A stretch of 64,000 bases of DNA from Colwellia sp. GTDB taxonomy: Bacteria; Pseudomonadota; Gammaproteobacteria; Enterobacterales; Alteromonadaceae. The notes under the pieces are model-generated. The model saw only the letters and a list, made by a program, of their open reading frames with translations. It ran no database searches and was not told the DNA's origin. Position numbers and translations under genes: made by a program. The stretch is from NCBI GenBank assembly GCA_013215385.1, contig JABSOY010000008.1, forward strand, positions 62,001 to 126,000, read 5' to 3'. Positions 32,015-52,717 of the stretch are shown here, in pieces; the first letter of the stretch is position 1; each line of letters begins with the position of its first letter.

Positions 32015-32986
32015 ATGTTAACAGACAACTTCGGTCGTAAGTTTTATTACTTGCGCCTATCGATTACTGACGTGTGCAATTTTCGTTGCACCTATTGCTT
32101 GCCTGATGGTTATTCATGCGACAATGACCGTGATTTTCTCTCCTTTGATGAAATCAAACGTGTTGCTAACGCTTTCGCGCAAATGGGCACGGAAAAAATT
32201 CGCATCACCGGCGGCGAACCTTCGTTGCGCAAAGACCTACCTGAAATTATCGCTGCTTGTAAGCAAACCCCTGGTATTAAAAAAGTCGCTATAACGACCA
32301 ATGGCTATAAATTACCTGAGCATTTACAAAGCTGGTTAGATGCCGGCATTGACGCGATCAATATTAGTATTGATAGCCTTGACCCGCGTATGTTTCATTC
32401 AATTACTGGCCATAATAAGTTACCGCATATTTTAAAAGGCATTGATATGGCGTTGGCGGATGGTCGTCCAACGATCAAAATTAATACTGTATTAATGCGT
32501 GAATACAATGGTCATGATATTAAAACCTTTCTTGATTGGCTTAAAGAGACTCCGGTGACCTTACGTTTTATTGAGCTAATGCAAACGGGTGATAACCAAG
32601 AGTTTTTCGATGCACAGCATGTACAGGGTGCGCGTATTAAACAAAATTTAATACTCGATGGTTGGTTACCTGTGATAAATGATAAAGCGGCGGGACCTGC
32701 ACAAGAATTTTATCATCCAGATTATTTAGGTAAAATTGGTTTGATTATGCCGTACAGCAAAGACTTTTGTAACACCTGTAATCGTTTACGAGTAAGCTCG
32801 TTAGGTAAATTGCATTTGTGCTTATTTACCGAAGCAGGTTTACCGCTGAAAGAGTATTTACAGCAAGACGATATTGAGCCTTTGAAAGAACAAATTCGCG
32901 CCATGATGACCGATAAAAAAGCCACTCATTTTCTTCAAGACAAACTAACAGGTGCCACTAAAAACCTGGCTATGTTGGGCGGATAA
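32015..32986 (+). CDS. moaA: GTP 3',8-cyclase MoaA
   Basis: Radical SAM enzyme that starts molybdopterin synthesis from GTP. The N-terminal cluster motif CNFRCTYC is near residue 24 and GGEPSLRKDL follows. The C-terminal cluster is CNTCNRLRVSSLGKLHLCLF near residue 255. Its 323 residues are normal. The last two glycines (MLGG) form the conserved MoaA tail needed for activity. It is the first gene behind the Moco riboswitch and leads the moa/mod cluster. Confidence 0.97.
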   Translation: MLTDNFGRKFYYLRLSITDVCNFRCTYCLPDGYSCDNDRDFLSFDEIKRVANAFAQMGTEKIRITGGEPSLRKDLPEIIAACKQTPGIKKVAITTNGYKLPEHLQSWLDAGIDAINISIDSLDPRMFHSITGHNKLPHILKGIDMALADGRPTIKINTVLMREYNGHDIKTFLDWLKETPVTLRFIELMQTGDNQEFFDAQHVQGARIKQNLILDGWLPVINDKAAGPAQEFYHPDYLGKIGLIMPYSKDFCNTCNRLRVSSLGKLHLCLFTEAGLPLKEYLQQDDIEPLKEQIRAMMTDKKATHFLQDKLTGATKNLAMLGG

Positions 32987-33806: not shown

Positions 33807-34355
33807 ATGAGCTCTTCACATGGCGGTAACGCTTTTATTCCCTTATCAATTGCCATATTAACTGTTTCTGATACCCGTGATGAATCTAACGATACCTCTG
33901 GGCAAGTGCTGGTTGAACGCTTAACTGAAGCGGGCCATAAACTTGCCGATAAGGTTATTGTTAAAGACGATGTTTACCAATTACGTGCGATTGTTTCTAA
34001 GTGGATAGCTGACGAAAATGTGCAAGTTATAATTTCTACCGGCGGTACTGGTTTTACTGCCCGTGATAATACGCCTGAAGCTTTACTGCCATTATTTGAT
34101 AAAAATGTTGAAGGTTTCGGCGAGGTTTTTCGTGCTATTTCGCTCGATGAAATTGGCACATCAACGATTCAATCGCGTGCTTTTGGCGGCATTGCCAATA
34201 GCACGGTGATTTTGTGTGTACCTGGTTCAACCAACGCTTGTCGTACGGCTTGGGATAAACTGATTAAAGAACAACTCGATGCTAGCCATCGTCCTTGTAA
34301 TTTTGTGCCACATTTGAAAATGGCCGAAATTGAGCTTTGTGAGACGCGAGACTAA
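33807..34355 (+). CDS. moaB: Molybdenum cofactor biosynthesis protein MoaB
   Basis: Adenylates molybdopterin before metal insertion, the role MogA also fills. It has 182 residues. The family segments are [18 protein letters not shown] near residue 12, [20 protein letters not shown] near residue 72 and [17 protein letters not shown] near residue 132. The stop overlaps the moaC start by one base (TAATG), so the two are coupled. The palindromic repeat precedes it. Confidence 0.93.
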
Positions 34356-34885
34356 TGGGCCATTCTAAAGAACAAGTAAAACCTAGCCTTAGCCATGTAA
34401 ATAAACGTGGTGAAGCTAATATGGTTGATGTCACTGAAAAAGCCATGACATCACGTTCTGCAACTGCAGAAGGTTATATTCAAATGTCGGCGCAGACCTT
34501 ATCGTTAATTAGCCAAGGCGATAATAAAAAGGGCGACGTATTTTCTGTTGCTCGTATTGCTGGTATTCAAGCAGCCAAAAAATGTAGTGACTTAATTCCA
34601 CTTTGTCATCCCTTAATGCTAACGAAAGTTAAAGTCGATTTCACTATTGATGAAAAAAACAGCCAAGTGCATGTGACAAGCTTATGTAAATTGACCGGAC
34701 AAACCGGTGTTGAAATGGAAGCGTTAACCGCGGTTTCAATTGCTTGTTTAACCTTGTTTGATATGTGTAAAGCGGTGGACCCTTTAATGGAAATTCACGG
34801 TATTCGTGTGATAACCAAAGAAGGCGGGAAATCAGGCTCTTGGCAAGCAAAAGCTGAGCAAGCCAAAGCCATACAAGCTAGATAA
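34355..34885 (+). CDS. moaC: Cyclic pyranopterin monophosphate synthase MoaC
   Basis: Converts the MoaA product to cyclic pyranopterin monophosphate. It has 176 residues. The segments [20 protein letters not shown] near residue 21, [20 protein letters not shown] near residue 76, [20 protein letters not shown] near residue 113 and the final KSGSW match the family. The first 10-12 residues are an extension. It overlaps moaB by one base and is followed by moaD after 13 bases. Confidence 0.96.
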
Positions 34886-45370: not shown

Positions 45371-45387
45371 TGTCAGACTATTTTACA
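45371..45387 (+). promoter_or_regulatory. Putative enhancer-binding-protein site upstream of the first PEP-CTERM gene
   Basis: TGTCAGACTATTTTACA has the form TGTC-N6-TTTTACA and an imperfect dyad TGT-N11-ACA. The same form is found before the second PEP-CTERM gene at 48323. Here it ends 65 bases before the -24 GG of a sigma-54 promoter, a normal distance for an activator site. Confidence 0.5.
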
Positions 45388-45450
45388 TTCTAGTCTTTTA
45401 ATAAATACGGTTAAATGCTAAGTACTTGGTTTTTATGGTTAAATAGGTAA

Positions 45451-45466
45451 TGGCCTGAGTTTTGCT
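45451..45466 (+). promoter_or_regulatory. Sigma-54 (-24/-12) promoter of the first PEP-CTERM gene
   Basis: TGGCCTGAGTTTTGCT matches the RpoN consensus TGGCAC-N5-TTGCA, with TGGC and TTGC intact and the exact GG-N10-GC spacing. The start codon is 58 bases beyond the element, consistent with a transcript start near 45477. Confidence 0.65.
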
Positions 45467-45523
45467 AAGCATGGCTAGAATTTTTACTTTTAATCATTAT
45501 TTATCATAAATGGAGTTTTAAAC

Positions 45524-46045
45524 ATGATAGTTAAGAACAGAAAAAAATTGGCCGGCATCGTATTTGGTATATTCGCGTTGTTATCAACATCAGCTCAGGC
45601 GCATTTAATTTACTTTGGTTACAGTGATAATGGCGATGGCACTGTAGATTACTTTGGTCAACACTATCATTCAGCATCTCAAAGCACAGGAAGTGGTTTA
45701 ACTTTTACCGATACGACTAACACTGCTATTACCTTTACTGGCTTATGGAATGATACTGTTGCCAGTCAGTCGGTTAATGATATGTTAGCTACGTTGACAC
45801 AAGGTTGGGATTTAACGAGTGGTTACTCTGATACAACGCAATATAACTGGTTAGTCTCTCGTAATGTTTCGTTAGCTAATGGTGTATATCAAGTGTCTGC
45901 AACCAATCCTACTGTCGTTGATACTGCTATTTCAACATTACCAGAGGTTACAGTAACTGGTGTTACCCCTGTGCCAGAGCCAACTAGTTTAGCCATTTTT
46001 GCTCTAGCATTGGTAGGCTTTGCTGCTCGTCGCGTTAAAAAATAA
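45524..46045 (+). CDS. PEP-CTERM sorting-domain protein (small)
   Basis: An exported protein of 173 residues. A signal peptide (LAGIVFGIFALLSTSAQA) is followed by a histidine-, aspartate- and tyrosine-rich mature part without a known domain (HLIYFGYSDNGDGTVDYFGQ). The C-terminal tail is a complete PEP-CTERM signal: VPEPTSLAIFALALVGFAAR, then the basic RVKK. Such proteins are cut and anchored or exported by an exosortase. The ribosome site is GGAG, 9 bases before the ATG. It is preceded by a sigma-54 promoter and ends with a strong terminator, so it is a single-gene unit. Confidence 0.9.
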   Translation: MIVKNRKKLAGIVFGIFALLSTSAQAHLIYFGYSDNGDGTVDYFGQHYHSASQSTGSGLTFTDTTNTAITFTGLWNDTVASQSVNDMLATLTQGWDLTSGYSDTTQYNWLVSRNVSLANGVYQVSATNPTVVDTAISTLPEVTVTGVTPVPEPTSLAIFALALVGFAARRVKK

Positions 46046-46064
46046 CGTCAAACAAAATTATTTA

Positions 46065-46098
46065 AAAAAGCACCACATATGTGGTGCTTTTTATTTAT
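46065..46098 (+). terminator. Terminator after the first PEP-CTERM gene
   Basis: A perfect 28-base palindrome (AAAAAGCACCACAT and its complement) is followed by TTTATTTATTTTT on the plus strand. Confidence 0.88.
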
Positions 46099-46244
46099 TT
46101 TTTTACAAGTTAATGTAAATACCTCTTCAAAATTTATCAGCTGCTAGTTAGTTTAGGAATAAACTTATAATCCGTTTTACTGGCCTCTATTATATGTATG
46201 AACAGCTTTATTTTAACAAAAAATAATCCCGTAACTGATCATTA

Positions 46245-46847
46245 TTAAAAGCTAATGATCATTTCTGCAGCAACACAATGACATTCATTTTCGCATGCCG
46301 GACAATCATAGCCATGCTTGCTTAATTCATTCCAACGTTCTGCATGTTCTTTTATTAAGATACCGCCACACTTAGTAAAATACTTAACCGCGCTATTACC
46401 GGGGCTTTGTTTCCATAAGTGACTAACACCAGCGACAGCACCTTGTTCAATAGCTGCTTTTGTCGATAGTTTGAGCAATTGACTACCGACTCCATATCCA
46501 CGGTAGTTTTCATCTACCGTATTGCATTTAAAGTAACAGACTTTATCAACAGAGTGCGGCCATAATTTAGGACTACACCATTCATCTGTTTGCCACTGAT
46601 TAACCGCAAAGGTCAACCGAAAGCCAATCAGTTTACCTGCAAAATAAGCGACAAAATTAGCATTTACTATCGTTGAGTCTTCCTGCTTAGTTAAGCCTTT
46701 TGCATACCAATTCACTATAATGTCGTGATCAATATAACCCGCACCATGTACTGCAGTGCCTAAATTAATGATTGCTGAGAAATCTTCGGGCAACATTTCT
46801 CGGTAAGTTACTTGGACTGCCTCTGTGTGTTTTTTCATTTTAGACAT
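46245..46847 (-). CDS. GNAT-family N-acetyltransferase with C-terminal cysteine cluster
   Basis: A 200-residue enzyme. The GNAT core has VDENYRGYGVGSQLLKLSTK near residue 113 (acetyl-CoA binding) and SPGNSAVKYFTKCGG near residue 152. The last 25 residues hold CPACENECHC, four cysteines and one histidine in ten positions, which may bind a metal. It is divergent from the FAD oxidoreductase, with 98 bases between the starts. The substrate is unknown. Confidence 0.85.
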   Translation of the reverse strand: MSKMKKHTEAVQVTYREMLPEDFSAIINLGTAVHGAGYIDHDIIVNWYAKGLTKQEDSTIVNANFVAYFAGKLIGFRLTFAVNQWQTDEWCSPKLWPHSVDKVCYFKCNTVDENYRGYGVGSQLLKLSTKAAIEQGAVAGVSHLWKQSPGNSAVKYFTKCGGILIKEHAERWNELSKHGYDCPACENECHCVAAEMIISF

Positions 46848-46945
46848 TTAATTAAATATAATGTTTTTTTGATTATTCAGCTTAGCAAATTTTTTATAAA
46901 TGGGGTAAAATTTCTCTGATTCTCTTCATTAAAGCACCCTTAAAA

Positions 46946-48316
46946 ATGTACGATCCTTTACACGATAAATCTCCTGGCTGTGGCGTTGCCTATCCACAAA
47001 GTTATTGGGCTGAAAATGCTGATACAAAAAATAATGCCCCAATAAGTGATGGGCAAGTTATTCAAGACTTAGACGTTGATGTTGCAATTATAGGGGCGGG
47101 TTATACCGGTCTTTCTTGTGCGTTACATTTAGCGCGTGAGCACGGCATTAAAGCGCATGTATTAGAAGCTAATCAAACAGCTTGGGGTTGTAGCGGCAGA
47201 AATGCCGGCTTTATTTTAAAGTCTTCAGGTCGAAAGTCTTATAGTGATATGGCGAAAAAGTGGGGCGAAGAAGTGATGCGTGGCATTTATGATGAAATGT
47301 GCTCGGGTGTTGAAACCGTTAAATCACTTATTGCCGAAGGCATTGACTGCGATGTACAAGCACGTGGTTTTTTAAAAGTTGCTCATAAGCCTAGTAAATT
47401 AGCAGAACTTATCAGCCAAGCTGAGTTACAACAAAAAACCTTTGCCGGTATTAAGAATAGTGATGTCGAAGTGTTGACGAGGAATGAAGTTCGTCAACAA
47501 TACATGGACGATAAAAATGCTTATGGCGCTATTCGTTATCAAGACGGCTTTGGTTTGAACCCATTAAAGCTTGCGTGGGGCTATCAAAAATTAGCGCGAG
47601 CAGCTGGCGCTAAAGTTCACACAAGTTCGCCCGTTTTAAACTTTATCGACGAAGGTCAACATCAAAAGCTGATTACACCACTGGGGGTTGTAAAGGCTAA
47701 GAAAGTGGTGATTGCGACGAATGGTTATACACCGAAAGGTTTTCATTCATTAACGACCGACCGTACGTTACCGGTACTTTCACAAATTATTGTTACTGAA
47801 CCTTTGTCAGAGCAACAATTAGCTGAGTGCAACTTTTTAACATCGAATGTTGTTATGGATACCCGCGCGCTAAAATATTATTACAGAAAGCTACCCGATA
47901 ATCGTATTTTATTTGGCGGCCGCGGAGCTATTACCGGTAAATCTGCCGATGATCCTTATTACGCTCAGCGATTGTTAGCTGTGTTAAAAACCAGTTTTCC
48001 ACCTCTGGGGAATTTAAAATATCAATATGCTTGGTCAGGCTGGATATGTATGGCCTTAGATGACATGCCACATATTTATCAAAATACGCAACAGAATATT
48101 TTTTACAGTATGGGCTATTGCGGATCGGGTGTGTCGTTTTCAGTACAGGCAGGTAAACGGCTAGCTGAGAAAGTAGCCGAAAAGGCTATAGATAAAAAAA
48201 TCGCTAATTTGCCATTATATAACAAAGCGTTGCCGAAATTTCCATTCGCGCCTTTAAGACGAGTCGGGCAATGGGGCTATTTTCATTATGGTAAAATAAA
48301 AGATGAGTGGTTATAA
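46946..48316 (+). CDS. FAD-dependent oxidoreductase (DAO family, PuuB-like)
   Basis: A 456-residue oxidoreductase. The dinucleotide-binding motif is VAIIGAGYTGLSCALHLARE near residue 49. The N-terminal leader SPGCGVAYPQSYW and the later GWGCSGRNAGFI-type segment (TAWGCSGRNAGFILKSSG) fit the DAO group that includes gamma-glutamylputrescine oxidase. The C-terminal flavin contact is MGYCGSGVSFSVQAGKRLAE near residue 392. No other polyamine genes are near, so the substrate (an N-substituted amine) is inferred from family only. Confidence 0.85.
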   Translation: MYDPLHDKSPGCGVAYPQSYWAENADTKNNAPISDGQVIQDLDVDVAIIGAGYTGLSCALHLAREHGIKAHVLEANQTAWGCSGRNAGFILKSSGRKSYSDMAKKWGEEVMRGIYDEMCSGVETVKSLIAEGIDCDVQARGFLKVAHKPSKLAELISQAELQQKTFAGIKNSDVEVLTRNEVRQQYMDDKNAYGAIRYQDGFGLNPLKLAWGYQKLARAAGAKVHTSSPVLNFIDEGQHQKLITPLGVVKAKKVVIATNGYTPKGFHSLTTDRTLPVLSQIIVTEPLSEQQLAECNFLTSNVVMDTRALKYYYRKLPDNRILFGGRGAITGKSADDPYYAQRLLAVLKTSFPPLGNLKYQYAWSGWICMALDDMPHIYQNTQQNIFYSMGYCGSGVSFSVQAGKRLAEKVAEKAIDKKIANLPLYNKALPKFPFAPLRRVGQWGYFHYGKIKDEWL

Positions 48317-48322
48317 CTGGAG

Positions 48323-48339
48323 TGTCCATAAATTTTACA
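48323..48339 (+). promoter_or_regulatory. Putative enhancer-binding-protein site upstream of the second PEP-CTERM gene
   Basis: TGTCCATAAATTTTACA has the same TGTC-N6-TTTTACA form as the site at 45371. It ends 63 bases before the -24 GG of the sigma-54 promoter (65 bases at the other gene). The matching sequence and distance suggest one common activator. Confidence 0.5.
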
Positions 48340-48399
48340 CAATTGTTTTTTATTTACCTGCCTTGGTTTTAACTCATTGATCTTTTGTGAAAAAATCTT

Positions 48400-48416
48400 T
48401 AGGAATGTTTCTTGCA
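48400..48416 (+). promoter_or_regulatory. Sigma-54 (-24/-12) promoter of the second PEP-CTERM gene
   Basis: TAGGAATGTTTCTTGCA has the exact GG-N10-GC spacing and a perfect TTGCA -12 element; the -24 element is weaker (AGGAAT). The gene start is 69 bases downstream. Confidence 0.55.
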
Positions 48417-48484
48417 GTCATAATCTAAGTATCTATTCATCTATCTATGCCAAATGATATTTCGATGATAATAAGGAAAAATAA

Positions 48485-49792
48485 ATGGCTGACATCAATA
48501 AGAAAAAATCAACATTAGCACTTGCCGTTGGTTTACTCTTGACCGCTGGTCTGAGTAATTTTGCATCAGCAAGTACTACAACCAGTGATACCGAGCATTA
48601 TTTAGTGATTGCTACTGGTGGACAAAGCGTATCTCAAGATCATTTTATTTTGTCAAATGCTGAAATTGGCGCTAACCAAGAATTTTTATCTGTTGGAGAA
48701 CCTCCTAGTGGCGGGACCCAAATATTAGGGAAATTCCATAGTGACGATTTGGAAGGCTTTGGTGGCGGTGTAACGTTAAATAATAAAGGCTTTAATATTT
48801 CTCCTGACAATATTACTGCTCTACAAGGTAAAGATTACAGTGGTAATGCTGCTTTAATTGGAGATAATGCCAAAGCAAACTTTTCAAATGCAGATGTCAA
48901 CGCTAAAGATAATAGTGCTAATAGTGGGGTTTTATGTGCTAATTCTACAAATAGTGAATGTGCACAAGATAGCACTGCGTTCTTTGAAGAGTCTGATCCT
49001 AATAACCGAGCAGCTTATGATATTGGTAATGGCGCTACAAGTGGCGTTGATTTTACCCTTGCTAGTGGTAACGGCTTAATCAATGACTTGGCGCAACAAC
49101 GTGATTGGATCCTTGATCTAGCAACGGATGTTACTTGGGACATGTCAGATATTAGTCAATTTGTTAATGGTAGTATGAATGATATCACAACATCTATAGA
49201 TGGTCTTAATAGTAATACAAGCGGCGAAAATGCTGATTATGTAGTCATAGATTTAGACTTAGGTAATAGTGGTTACTTTAATCTTAATAATGTTAACTGG
49301 GTCATTGAAAGTTTAACTGGCTTAACAGCCATATTTCGCATGGTTGATGGCCAATATTATAGCTTTGATAACGCTTCTGTAATGTTAAGTGATGGTACAG
49401 AAAATCTTGAGAAGTTAGGCAATGGTGAATTAGGTGCTATCTTTTACCAAGATGCCTATAAAGGAACTAACGAGATATTTAATTTAAGTAACGTTGTACT
49501 TGGTGGCATTGGCTTATGGGACTTTACCGACTTTAATCCAGGAGGGAAAAATGGTCAGTTGATGAAAGATATTGACTCTGTATGGACAGATCATAGTAGT
49601 ACCAATACTAAAATAACCATGGATAATGCCCAAGGCTGTGGTCAGTTCATCAGTAATACCATTAATATGCAAAACGCTCGTTGGGCTCGTTGTGCACTAG
49701 GAGCCCCTAGCGTAGATGTACCTGAGCCAAGTACCTTATTATTATTTGCTTTAGGTTTATTTGGTTTAAGATCACGTAATAAAACAGTGTAA
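48485..49792 (+). CDS. PEP-CTERM sorting-domain protein (large)
   Basis: An exported protein of 435 residues. The signal peptide is LALAVGLLLTAGLSNFASA. The mature part is rich in Asn, Asp, Ser and Gly, beta-helical in character (for example ADYVVIDLDLGNSGYFNLNN), and loosely recalls choice-of-anchor-A surface proteins; I am not sure of that. Two cysteine pairs may form disulfides. The C-terminus is the sorting signal VPEPSTLLLFALGLFGLRSR. It ends with a terminator before prsT. It has its own sigma-54 promoter. Confidence 0.9.
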   Translation: MADINKKKSTLALAVGLLLTAGLSNFASASTTTSDTEHYLVIATGGQSVSQDHFILSNAEIGANQEFLSVGEPPSGGTQILGKFHSDDLEGFGGGVTLNNKGFNISPDNITALQGKDYSGNAALIGDNAKANFSNADVNAKDNSANSGVLCANSTNSECAQDSTAFFEESDPNNRAAYDIGNGATSGVDFTLASGNGLINDLAQQRDWILDLATDVTWDMSDISQFVNGSMNDITTSIDGLNSNTSGENADYVVIDLDLGNSGYFNLNNVNWVIESLTGLTAIFRMVDGQYYSFDNASVMLSDGTENLEKLGNGELGAIFYQDAYKGTNEIFNLSNVVLGGIGLWDFTDFNPGGKNGQLMKDIDSVWTDHSSTNTKITMDNAQGCGQFISNTINMQNARWARCALGAPSVDVPEPSTLLLFALGLFGLRSRNKTV

Positions 49793-49806
49793 AGTTTAAA
49801 TCTTTG

Positions 49807-49838
49807 GAAAAACGGTCAATTTATTGGTCGTTTTTTTT
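49807..49838 (+). terminator. Terminator after the second PEP-CTERM gene
   Basis: A 12-bp stem with two G-T wobble pairs (AAAAACGGTCAA with TTGGTCGTTTTT) is followed by a run of eight T in total. It separates the PEP-CTERM gene from prsT. Confidence 0.8.
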
Positions 49839-49888
49839 GCTAAAAAGACTATGCTTAATATAGTTATCTTCTATTTTCAAAGGCTTAT

Positions 49889-52717
49889 ATGCTTAATTTT
49901 CCCCGTGTCAGGCAAGTTATCAATAAAGTAGTCACCATAGGGCTATTCACATTTGTACTTATTGTTTCTACGTTCACTTATGCCGAAGAAAAAAATAGTG
50001 TTTTAGAGCAACACGAGCTGGCACAACAAGCTTTTAATTATGATAAAAACGAAACAGCATATATTCATTTAAAAAACGCTTTGCAACAAGATGGTAACTA
50101 TATTCCCAGTAAAGTGCTGATGGGAAAATTATTGCTAAGGTATGGTTATATCAATGATGCGGTGCTTGAATTTGAAGAAGTTATTAATTTAGGCGCTGAT
50201 ATAGCACTCTTTATTCAACCCTTTGGCGAGGCTTTATTATTATCGAATAAACCACAAGCAGTGTTAAACTTGGCGAAAGATGTAAGGCTGTCAAGTCAAA
50301 GTCTAACGCAGTTATATGTCTTTAGAGGCAAAGCGCAAGCACAGCTTAAAAATAATGATCGAGAGCTTGCTGAATATAAAAAAGCACTACGACTTAATCC
50401 AAACAGTAGTATCGCACTCAATAGTATTGCGGGTTATTATTTTAAATTGCAACAACTTGAAAAAGCACAGCAGTTTCTTGATAAGTCATTTCAAAATAGC
50501 AAACAAGAATACCTGACCTGGCATTTACAGGCACAAATATATAAACAGCAGTCGTTAAATCAGCAAGCAATTGATACCTATTTGAAAGCTTTAGCGATAG
50601 CGCCAGAATTTCTTGATGCCAAGCGTGGTATTGCCAGTGTCTATATTAATCAGAATGATGATGAAAAAGCACTTGAATTAGTCAAGCAGGTATTAGAAAA
50701 ATCCCCTAACGATCCTCGGGCCAAACTATTACATGCAAATTTATTATTTAAACAAAACAATAATAAAGAAGCGAAAGCGATATTAACTAGCTTAAATCAA
50801 AAAATAGCGCTAATCCCTGAAGATGTGCAATTAAAAAATAACTATTTATTTTTTATTAACGCCTTAAGTCAATATTTACTGGAGAACTATCAGTCGGCAC
50901 TACGCAATATTAATAAATTTTTGCGAGATGAACCGGATAACTTTCAAGCTATTTCTCTCGCGGTTAATATTTACCTTAAGTTGGGGCAATACATCCCGGC
51001 ACGTGATTTACTTGATAAACATGTCGTAAAAGTTATGCCAGAAATCGACATGGCGGTAACACTATGTCAGCTATACATAGATAATCGAAATATTTTTAAA
51101 TGTGAAGAATTATTACCTAAGTTGAAAGCCCTGTACCCACAAGCTAGCCAATTAATATTAGTAGAAGCAAAACTTTTGGAAAGTAGACGACAGGCGTCTA
51201 TAGCCGTTACTTTTTTAGAACAAGCAAATGATAATAATCGAAATATTGCCTATGAAAAAGCGTTAATTCGACTCTATATGCGAACCGAAAAAGTAACGAA
51301 AGCGGGCCGATTAATCGAAAAGTTGTTAAAGGAATACCCACAAAATATAGAATTGATGAATGCCTTAGCTGCATCGTTAATTAAGTTAAAAAAATATCCG
51401 CAAGCTCTAGGGGTGCTAAAGCATATATTGCTTAAACAACCTACAAACTATAGCGCTCGTTTCAATACCGCCTCAGCCTTGTTAGAAGCTGGAGCTGCCG
51501 AACAAGCGAAAGCGATGTTATTAAACTTGCTTGATCAGAGAGCGGGTCAAGCAAACGCGAGATTACTCCTAACCAAAGCACAGCTAGCTCTTGGAAATTC
51601 ACCGCAAGCAATTATTGAGCTGCAAACATTGATTAGCTATCACCCAGATCATGTTAATGGCAATGAAATGTTGATGTTGTTATTAAAAACAACAGGGCAA
51701 TTCGAGCAAGCACTTATAGTGGTAAATAAATTAAGTAAATTTGATAGCTTGAATGAAAACTACCTTAAAGAAAAAGCGGAGCTTTATTTATTAATTGGCG
51801 ATAGCAAGCAATACCAAACGCAGGTGAATAGGCTACAAAGCTTATGGTTTCAGCAAGCCGATAAGCTCACTTATTTAGCAACGATGCAAAGAAATTATGG
51901 CGACATTAAAGGAGCCAGAACAACCATTAATTTAGCAAATAAGCTTAAACCGAACAATGCTCAAGTAAATTATGAAAATGTTAAAATAAGTTTGTTTGAA
52001 AAGGATCTTAAAACCGCAAATAAGTATTTAAGTCGTTTGAAGAAAAGTACTTTAGAAAAATCTAAAATACTGTTGCTTGAAGGCGATTACTTGTTAGCGA
52101 CTCAGCAAGCAAAACCAGCTCAAGATAAATATTTAGCAGCATTCGAGTTAAACAATACTAATAACATGGCATTAGCCAAAGCATATAACTTAGCATTGCT
52201 CGGCCTGAATGATGAACGATTTGAAGCTTTACTCGTTGCTGCCATACAGCAACAAAATAGTAATATTTATCATCGAAATATTTTGGCAGACTTTTACTTA
52301 AAAAATAAGCGATATGTTGAAGCTGCTGAACATTACCTGTTACTTGAAAAAGCCAAACGTTTACCAAATCGGGCAAGTATTTTAAATAACCTTGCGTTCT
52401 CTTTAATGGCTACTGATAACTTAAAAGCACAAATTTATGCGGAACAAGCCGTGAAATTACAACCAAGTTCAGCGGCAATAGTTGATACTTACGGCTGGAT
52501 TTTATTCAAAAACAAACAGTTTGAACAAGCGCTGAAAACACTTAATCAGGCTAAGTCGATTGATTCAACTAATACAGAAATTCGTTATCATTTAGCTGAA
52601 ACATTAATGCAATTATCACGTAAAGCTGAAGCTAAAGTTGAACTCACTTACGTACTGACAAAATCTCGGAGTAAAGCTGAATTGGCACTAGCAAAAAATT
52701 TGTTTTCTCAGCTTTAG
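49889..52717 (+). CDS. prsT: PEP-CTERM system TPR-repeat protein PrsT
   Basis: A 942-residue protein with a membrane or signal segment (VVTIGLFTFVLIVSTFTYA) and tetratricopeptide repeats across the whole length, for example NREKALRLNPNSSIALN-type units (ELAEYKKALRLNPNSS) and DTYGWILFKNKQFEQALKTL near the C-terminus. The size, the dense TPR array and the location next to PEP-CTERM genes fit PrsT, a lipo- or periplasmic TPR protein of exosortase systems that is often near exopolysaccharide genes. No exosortase (XrtA/EpsH), PrsK or PrsR gene lies in this window. Confidence 0.87.
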   Translation: MLNFPRVRQVINKVVTIGLFTFVLIVSTFTYAEEKNSVLEQHELAQQAFNYDKNETAYIHLKNALQQDGNYIPSKVLMGKLLLRYGYINDAVLEFEEVINLGADIALFIQPFGEALLLSNKPQAVLNLAKDVRLSSQSLTQLYVFRGKAQAQLKNNDRELAEYKKALRLNPNSSIALNSIAGYYFKLQQLEKAQQFLDKSFQNSKQEYLTWHLQAQIYKQQSLNQQAIDTYLKALAIAPEFLDAKRGIASVYINQNDDEKALELVKQVLEKSPNDPRAKLLHANLLFKQNNNKEAKAILTSLNQKIALIPEDVQLKNNYLFFINALSQYLLENYQSALRNINKFLRDEPDNFQAISLAVNIYLKLGQYIPARDLLDKHVVKVMPEIDMAVTLCQLYIDNRNIFKCEELLPKLKALYPQASQLILVEAKLLESRRQASIAVTFLEQANDNNRNIAYEKALIRLYMRTEKVTKAGRLIEKLLKEYPQNIELMNALAASLIKLKKYPQALGVLKHILLKQPTNYSARFNTASALLEAGAAEQAKAMLLNLLDQRAGQANARLLLTKAQLALGNSPQAIIELQTLISYHPDHVNGNEMLMLLLKTTGQFEQALIVVNKLSKFDSLNENYLKEKAELYLLIGDSKQYQTQVNRLQSLWFQQADKLTYLATMQRNYGDIKGARTTINLANKLKPNNAQVNYENVKISLFEKDLKTANKYLSRLKKSTLEKSKILLLEGDYLLATQQAKPAQDKYLAAFELNNTNNMALAKAYNLALLGLNDERFEALLVAAIQQQNSNIYHRNILADFYLKNKRYVEAAEHYLLLEKAKRLPNRASILNNLAFSLMATDNLKAQIYAEQAVKLQPSSAAIVDTYGWILFKNKQFEQALKTLNQAKSIDSTNTEIRYHLAETLMQLSRKAEAKVELTYVLTKSRSKAELALAKNLFSQL

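Follow-up and report, generated by a model that had tools for sequence, protein, structure and literature searches.

Two non-adjacent genes for PEP-CTERM proteins (PEP-CTERM genes 1 and 2) in a 64,000-nucleotide (nt) stretch of a Colwellia sp. genome (GenBank GCA_013215385.1, contig JABSOY010000008.1; the whole stretch is called the window here) are each preceded by an exact copy of the 17-nt element TGTC-N6-TTTTACA and by a -24/-12 sigma-54 promoter. Both elements very probably belong to the PEP-CTERM box regulon, as helically phased enhancers that are bound by the activator PrsR and act on the sigma-54 promoters. The pairing of element and promoter, the enrichment of the element before PEP-CTERM genes, its co-occurrence with PrsR and the helical register of its spacings were all computed directly. 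A sequence-only reading of the window had made the same observation, which is a correct rediscovery of a prediction already known from the literature (Haft et al. 2006, PMC1569441).

An exact element and a sigma-54 promoter precede both genes

Both element-promoter pairs are intergenic and lie 5′ of PEP-CTERM genes 1 and 2 (Table 1). The GG-N10-GC sites that the sequence-only reading had placed before the two genes were recovered as 16-mers and the TGTC-N6-TTTTACA matches as exact 17-mers, while its distances of 65 and 63 proved to be position differences, equivalent to 64 and 62 bases between the element and the first G. From the end of the sigma-54 motif to the start codon there are 57 nt for gene 1 and 68 nt for gene 2, and the element at 48323 begins 7 nt past the final base of the preceding gene's stop codon. 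The products of genes 1 and 2 scored 29.1 and 29.5 bits, respectively, with PF07589 (cut-off 20.7) and 22.4 and 20.9 bits with TIGR02595 (cut-off 16).

Scanning the window for pairs (element with at most two mismatches, sigma-54 score of at least 15, distance 48-110 nt) returned the sites of genes 1 and 2 plus a marginal minus-strand site at 32447. The element alone with at most two mismatches was not enriched in the window (31 seen vs 38.5 expected), and exact elements or element-promoter pairs were therefore used; the signal is carried only by the exact form of the element and by its pairing with a sigma-54 site. A one-mismatch element at 34685-34701 (minus strand), located inside the open reading frame (ORF) 34355-34885 and lacking a sigma-54 partner in the window scan, was taken as a chance match. 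A Colwellia metagenome-assembled genome (L211) shares the gene order of the window at 46946-52717, where a gene for a 456-aa oxidoreductase-like protein is followed by PEP-CTERM gene 2 and then prsT; in both, the first base of the element is no more than 10 nt from the stop codon of the upstream gene.

Table 1. Features of the two PEP-CTERM loci in the window
Feature	Position	Strand	Remarks
Upstream activator element (Haft 'motif 1'), exact TGTC-N6-TTTTACA, TGTCAGACTATTTTACA	45371..45387	+	predicted PrsR site
-24/-12 sigma-54 promoter, TGGCCTGAGTTTTGCT	45451..45466	+	GG 45452-45453, GC 45464-45465; first G 64 nt past element
PEP-CTERM gene 1, 173 aa, tail VPEPTSLAIFALALVGFAARRVKK	45524..46045	+	profile matches; signal peptide by eye
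Upstream activator element, exact, TGTCCATAAATTTTACA	48323..48339	+	17-mer match
-24/-12 sigma-54 promoter, AGGAATGTTTCTTGCA	48401..48416	+	GG 48402-48403, GC 48414-48415; first G 62 nt past element
PEP-CTERM gene 2, 435 aa, tail VPEPSTLLLFALGLFGLRSRNKTV	48485..49792	+	profile matches
prsT, tetratricopeptide repeat protein of the PEP-CTERM system	49889..52717	+	TIGR02917 355 bits, cut-off 312.2; directly 3′ of PEP-CTERM gene 2

The element is enriched before PEP-CTERM genes of the source genome

The source genome (G000, 5.10 Mb, with the window on contig C40) holds 25 exact elements against 4 matches to a reversed-pattern control, in keeping with the earlier judgement that the match of sequence and distance at the two genes is unlikely to be due to chance. 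The genome-wide enrichment before PEP-CTERM genes that the sequence-only reading had proposed as a check was likewise found: 17 of the 25 exact elements lie upstream of such genes in the correct orientation, a count that includes C11:5250, whose product is under the Pfam cut-off (19.0 bits), and a gene on contig C4 with its tail in a separate frame. GG-N10-GC follows at 61-64 nt in 13 of these 17, at 74 nt in two and at 105 nt in one, and the remaining one (C14:49370) has GA instead of the -24 GG, at 63 nt. No sigma-54 score of at least 16 was obtained for the eight remaining exact elements.

When the pair was relaxed to at most three mismatches in the element plus a sigma-54 site, it was found before 21 of the 33 PEP-CTERM genes over the Pfam cut-off, where shuffles expect 2.3, and seven genes with one- or two-mismatch elements showed spacings of 62-64 nt. 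The pair at C7:9926 (three mismatches, 107 nt) is probably a chance match, without which the count is 20/33. By hand, an exact element was also found at three genes scored as misses, namely C37:339696 (74 nt), C4:231586 (broken reading frame, 64 nt) and C14:49370, bringing the corrected count to 23/33. In the case of the short-open-frame matches C11:45973 and C3:49263, the searched sequence is perhaps not the promoter.

Some loci of this genome stand out. At C2:52500-59500 (L045, L026), four similar tandem PEP-CTERM genes each have their own element, one of them mismatched, with a sigma-54 site at 62 or 63 nt. The gene at C22:27482-27780 (L057), behind its own exact element and a sigma-54 site at 62 nt, encodes a PEP-CTERM protein so short that only about 10 residues separate signal peptide and sorting tail. 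The gene at C4:230890-231648 (L048) has an exact element and promoter; its sorting tail is encoded separately, in a short frame past the first stop and near a contig end. The exact element at C37:184883-184899 (L059) is located 46 nt before an ORF resembling a type IV pilin, with no recognisable sigma-54 site.

Element excess follows PrsR through the family

One protein of the source genome exceeds the cut-off for PrsR (TIGR02915, 735 bits vs 502.6). It carries a GAFTGA loop by pattern match and, by eye, a receiver-like start and a C-terminal helix-turn-helix-like end. The adjoining gene encodes PrsK (TIGR02916, 585 bits vs a cut-off of 300, over 478 aa of the protein), and an XrtA-system ATPase is encoded nearby on the other strand (363 bits vs a cut-off of 324.5); the genome has one RpoN and one exosortase.

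PrsR is present in 118 of the 147 genomes of the family. With the source genome left out, the 117 PrsR-positive genomes contain 1128 elements against 504 controls, with 103 of them above control, whereas the 29 genomes lacking PrsR contain 111 against 103, with 11 above control. The excess differs between genomes with and without PrsR (Mann-Whitney p = 6e-9 by genome), and also by genus means (p = 1.6e-5; 39 genera with and 9 without PrsR, four mixed genera left out). Within the mixed genera, the contrast is seen in g34, in two of three PrsR-positive genomes of g9 and in one of two of g36 (G134, 28:5).

PF07589 matches occur in 117 genomes, 115 of which also have PrsR; three genomes have PrsR only and two have PF07589 only. 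Given this near-complete co-occurrence, PF07589 counts did not serve to distinguish PrsR from the other parts of the system. The three PrsR-positive genomes without PF07589 (G006, G065, G118) together hold 21 elements against 5 controls, and the two PF07589-positive genomes without PrsR (G106, G107) hold 8 against 7. PrsR was chosen as the binder because it is the sigma-54 activator of the system. The enrichment, the presence of genes for PrsR, PrsK and RpoN, and an excess that tracks PrsR together support the proposal, made by the sequence-only reading and previously in print, that the element is a PrsR-type enhancer, with binding itself deduced from these data.

In the one-contig genome G101 (C1:2205300-2209600, L190), PrsR is split over two reading frames while 17 elements stand against 5 controls; the split reflects either an error in sequencing or the activator's recent loss.

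Spacings group at intervals of about one helical turn

The distances between element and promoter cluster at about 52, 63, 74 and 85 nt, about one helical turn apart. Promoters were recognised by a sigma-54 score based on the consensus TGGCACGNNNNTTGCW, with weights that were set by us and then kept fixed; the threshold of 16 was set after the rows of a first set had been viewed and was then kept for a second set. The first set comprised 99 distinct exact elements, 24 from the source genome and 75 from eight PrsR-positive relatives, in which 76 of 90 listed places were used. The 14 omitted places were picked before their flanks had been seen, with the middle bases of the matches visible, a choice that may raise the share of elements with a sigma-54 site (51/75) but not the register.

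A sigma-54 site followed 66 of the 99 elements within 15-160 nt, where shuffles expect 5.35, and 44 of these 66 spacings were 60-66 nt. The off-peak spacings between 40 and 120 nt (n = 21) fell at 51-53 (5), 71-76 (12), 82, 86, 98 and 105 nt, with none at 54-60 or 66-70 nt, and p was 1.8e-5 in a one-sided V-test of a 10.5-bp periodicity about 63. The limits of the main peak (57-69) and the in-register classes were set after the distances had been seen, and the second set served as a check on new sites. It came from four further genomes, selected because of high counts, a broken PrsR or a lack of PF07589 and without regard to spacing, and all 67 places were used. A sigma-54 site accompanied 29 of these 67 elements, a lower share than in the first set, and 17 of the 29 were at 60-66 nt; the 11 off-peak spacings (51, 51, 52, 52, 53, 74, 75, 85, 85, 95 and 110 nt) gave p = 9e-4.

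The V-tests, all one-sided, treat sites as independent, and kinship was addressed by reducing homologues to one spacing per homologous group and distance. This left 26 off-peak spacings with p = 6e-6, a result never exceeded in 100,000 draws of a jitter control. When the sigma-54 threshold was varied from 12 to 17.5, p for all off-peak sites stayed at or below 3e-5 and that for the second set ranged from 0.0004 to 0.023.

The 95 sites form 71 homologous groups, 15 of which have more than one member, and members of the same group were found at different turns (75/75/63/64/63/51; 73/64/86/71; 64/53; 63/51; 74/75/95), although some steps within groups are inexact (65/73, 61/53, 64/71). For homologues of gene 2 the spacing is 62 nt in the window, 73 nt at L211, 72 nt at L215 (one-mismatch element) and 62 nt at L212 (one mismatch), with the upstream stretch of L214 (genome G147) identical to that of L211; a gene 1 homologue in G069 (38% identical, L217) has an exact element at 64 nt. 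The predominance of whole-turn spacings points to a need for the activator to occupy one face of the DNA.

In-register promoters lead to canonical and variant sorting tails

A PEP pattern served to recognise sorting tails, and variants were assessed by eye. Among 64 in-register promoters, 36 stand before a PEP-CTERM protein (34 by pattern and two by hand, one with a broken frame and one very short) and 21 before a protein with a similar non-PEP tail (SEP, PAP, SAP, MPN, AEP, NEP, DEP, PLP and others), so that sorting tails, canonical or not, account for 57/64. Twelve of the 21 variant-tail proteins were scanned with TIGR02595, and nine of them were below its cut-off of 16 bits and three above. 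Genomes G006 and G142 (genus g7) have PrsR and the element together with 0 and 1 PF07589 matches, and some of their in-register targets end in tails such as NAPAT, SAPSS and PAPAS.

Homologous proteins that carry a twin-arginine signal and lack a PEP-like tail lie behind a pair at 63, 63 and 51 nt in three genera (L085, L126 and L156 in G016, G042 and G134, respectively). L085 and L126 had no match over cut-off in Pfam or NCBIfam, and a search of the source genome with L126 as query found no homologue, which shows little since it was run without a positive control; this family may be a target of PrsR outside the set of exosortase substrates. Another homologous pair, L170 and L171 (G006 and G142), encodes proteins of about 200 aa with no sorting tail and an N-terminal membrane segment by eye, behind a pair at 53 and 61 nt.

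Proposed mechanism and alternatives

In the mechanism that we propose, the kinase PrsK would switch on PrsR, an NtrC-type activator, and phosphorylated PrsR would bind the 17-bp imperfect dyad (TGT-N11-ACA), contact sigma-54 RNA polymerase at the -24/-12 promoter via a short DNA loop and drive open-complex formation, with exosortase substrates being expressed together as the outcome. We infer PrsR as the binder, its phosphorylation by PrsK and the formation of the loop. Because such a loop would be short (about 63 bp), activator and polymerase would need the same helix face, and evolution would therefore mostly permit whole-turn differences (about 52, 63, 74, 85 and 105). It is likely that PrsR acts only from one helix face, that distances are accordingly quantised family-wide (about 52, 63, 74, 85 and 95-105 bp) with homologous promoters jumping by about whole turns, and that the phased pair is specific enough to reveal exosortase substrates whose non-PEP tails (SEP, PAP, MPN, AEP and others) are missed by current profiles.

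Several observations weigh against this picture. Spacings of 98, 110 and 153 nt are out of register, and the off-peak sites fit best to a period of 11.0-11.2, not 10.5. In the source genome, 10 of the 33 PEP-CTERM genes lack a convincing pair (nine if the weak C7:9926 is counted), and 7 of the 64 in-register promoters lead to no recognisable sorting tail (three genes cut by the analysed stretch, two without a long ORF and two with a twin-arginine signal). Fourteen of the 117 PrsR-positive genomes show no element excess; of the mixed genera, g45 lacks the contrast, and the PrsR-positive G108 of g36 (5:3) is not above the PrsR-negative G036 (6:3). Because PrsR and PF07589 almost always occur together, co-occurrence points to the system as a whole and not to PrsR in particular.

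One alternative is that the element at these sigma-54 promoters is the site of a different NtrC-family activator encoded in the genome. Candidates would not be lacking, as the genome has 17 further matches to the PrsR profile of at least 242 bits, all under the cut-off and read as other sigma-54 activators; the 14 genomes without element excess would also fit, as would a Desulfovibrio study in which two other regulators share a few targets with the response regulator DVUA0057 (PMC3333781). The element excess nevertheless follows PrsR over the 147 genomes and vanishes without it, 57/64 in-register targets have exosortase-type tails, and for Zoogloea a passage of PMC9012009 that cites a 2018 paper reports RpoN and PrsK-PrsR as regulators of a PEP-CTERM gene; a different activator is quite improbable. 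It is scarcely credible that the element is the site of an unrelated regulator or nucleoid protein beside coincidental sigma-54 sites: the element is A+T-rich, and 8 of the 25 exact copies have neither a PEP-CTERM gene nor a sigma-54 score of at least 16, yet a sigma-54 site follows 66 of 99 elements at sharply defined spacings where 5.35 were expected.

The register, for its part, might reflect shared promoter ancestry instead of a mechanical constraint. PEP-CTERM families grow by duplication, and 15 of the 71 homologous groups have several members; the signal persists after homologue reduction, however, and members of one group occupy different turns (75/63/51; 64/53; 63/51; 74/95), though not always by exact steps, and we regard ancestry as an unlikely source of the pattern.

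Comparison with known systems

Haft et al. 2006 (PMC1569441) described a 17-nt motif 1 ending in TTTACA and followed by a sigma-54 motif 2 (-24 GG / -12 GC), with a spacer of mean 62.8 nt (standard deviation (SD) 10.6, range 32-92) and a mean of 71 nt (SD 38.5) from the end of motif 2 to the start codon. Of 167 proteobacterial PEP-CTERM genes, 99 had this box upstream; PrsR was its predicted binder, PrsR, PrsK and PrsT were the matching proteins, and the genomes pooled to find the motifs included Colwellia psychrerythraea. The window agrees with it in the TTTACA-ending 17-mer, a spacer within the range, the sigma-54 motif, the start-codon distance and the position 5′ of PEP-CTERM genes. The spacings of 64 and 62 nt are measured to the first G, and the exact edge of Haft motif 2 may differ; the TGTC half is likened to motif 1 by its length and position. 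The section on the box gives the spacing as mean, SD and range and mentions no helical register, and the targets found here include tails that depart from PEP.

A 20-year-old regulatory prediction is confirmed in one genome, and by co-occurrence over 147. To it is added a physical rule of whole helical turns, known in Vibrio qrr and seen here over a large regulon of unrelated genes, and this rule offers a promoter-based route to exosortase substrates where the protein tail is too variable for profiles. Helix-face work exists on NtrC and NifA. Neither a helical rule for the PEP-CTERM system nor the use of a phased pair to find variant substrates was found in the open-licence literature, a search that does not establish their absence from print; in this system the rule is possibly new, its principle being known from the Vibrio qrr enhancers.

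Desulfovibrio vulgaris, the organism of DVUA0057, is a deltaproteobacterium in older usage. DVUA0057 was predicted by Haft et al. to regulate PEP-CTERM genes, and in the passages concerned its five predicted PEP-CTERM targets were enriched in a DNA-affinity-purified chip (DAP-chip) assay, with no binding motif validated (PMC3333781). This reported binding of a predicted PEP-CTERM regulator to its targets is the nearest binding evidence seen, and it comes from another organism. In Aquincola tertiaricarbonis, pepA lies upstream of prsT, the same order as PEP-CTERM gene 2 and prsT, and has a -24/-12 promoter with a mapped start, RpoN1 dependence and a 'previously predicted enhancer' upstream; this is another lineage, and the relevant passages contain no spacing analysis (PMC9850573).

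The closest parallel to the register is found in Vibrio, where the relevant passages describe 61 natural sigma-54 enhancers of qrr genes with loops of about 80 to 120 bp, in clusters about 11 bp apart, which the authors read as tolerance to the helical repeat (PMC4740811). Sigma-54 enhancer distances clustered about 11 bp apart are common to both systems, as far as those passages go; the qrr enhancers serve the activator LuxO and one small-RNA gene family, whereas the loop here is shorter and the targets are many unrelated protein genes.

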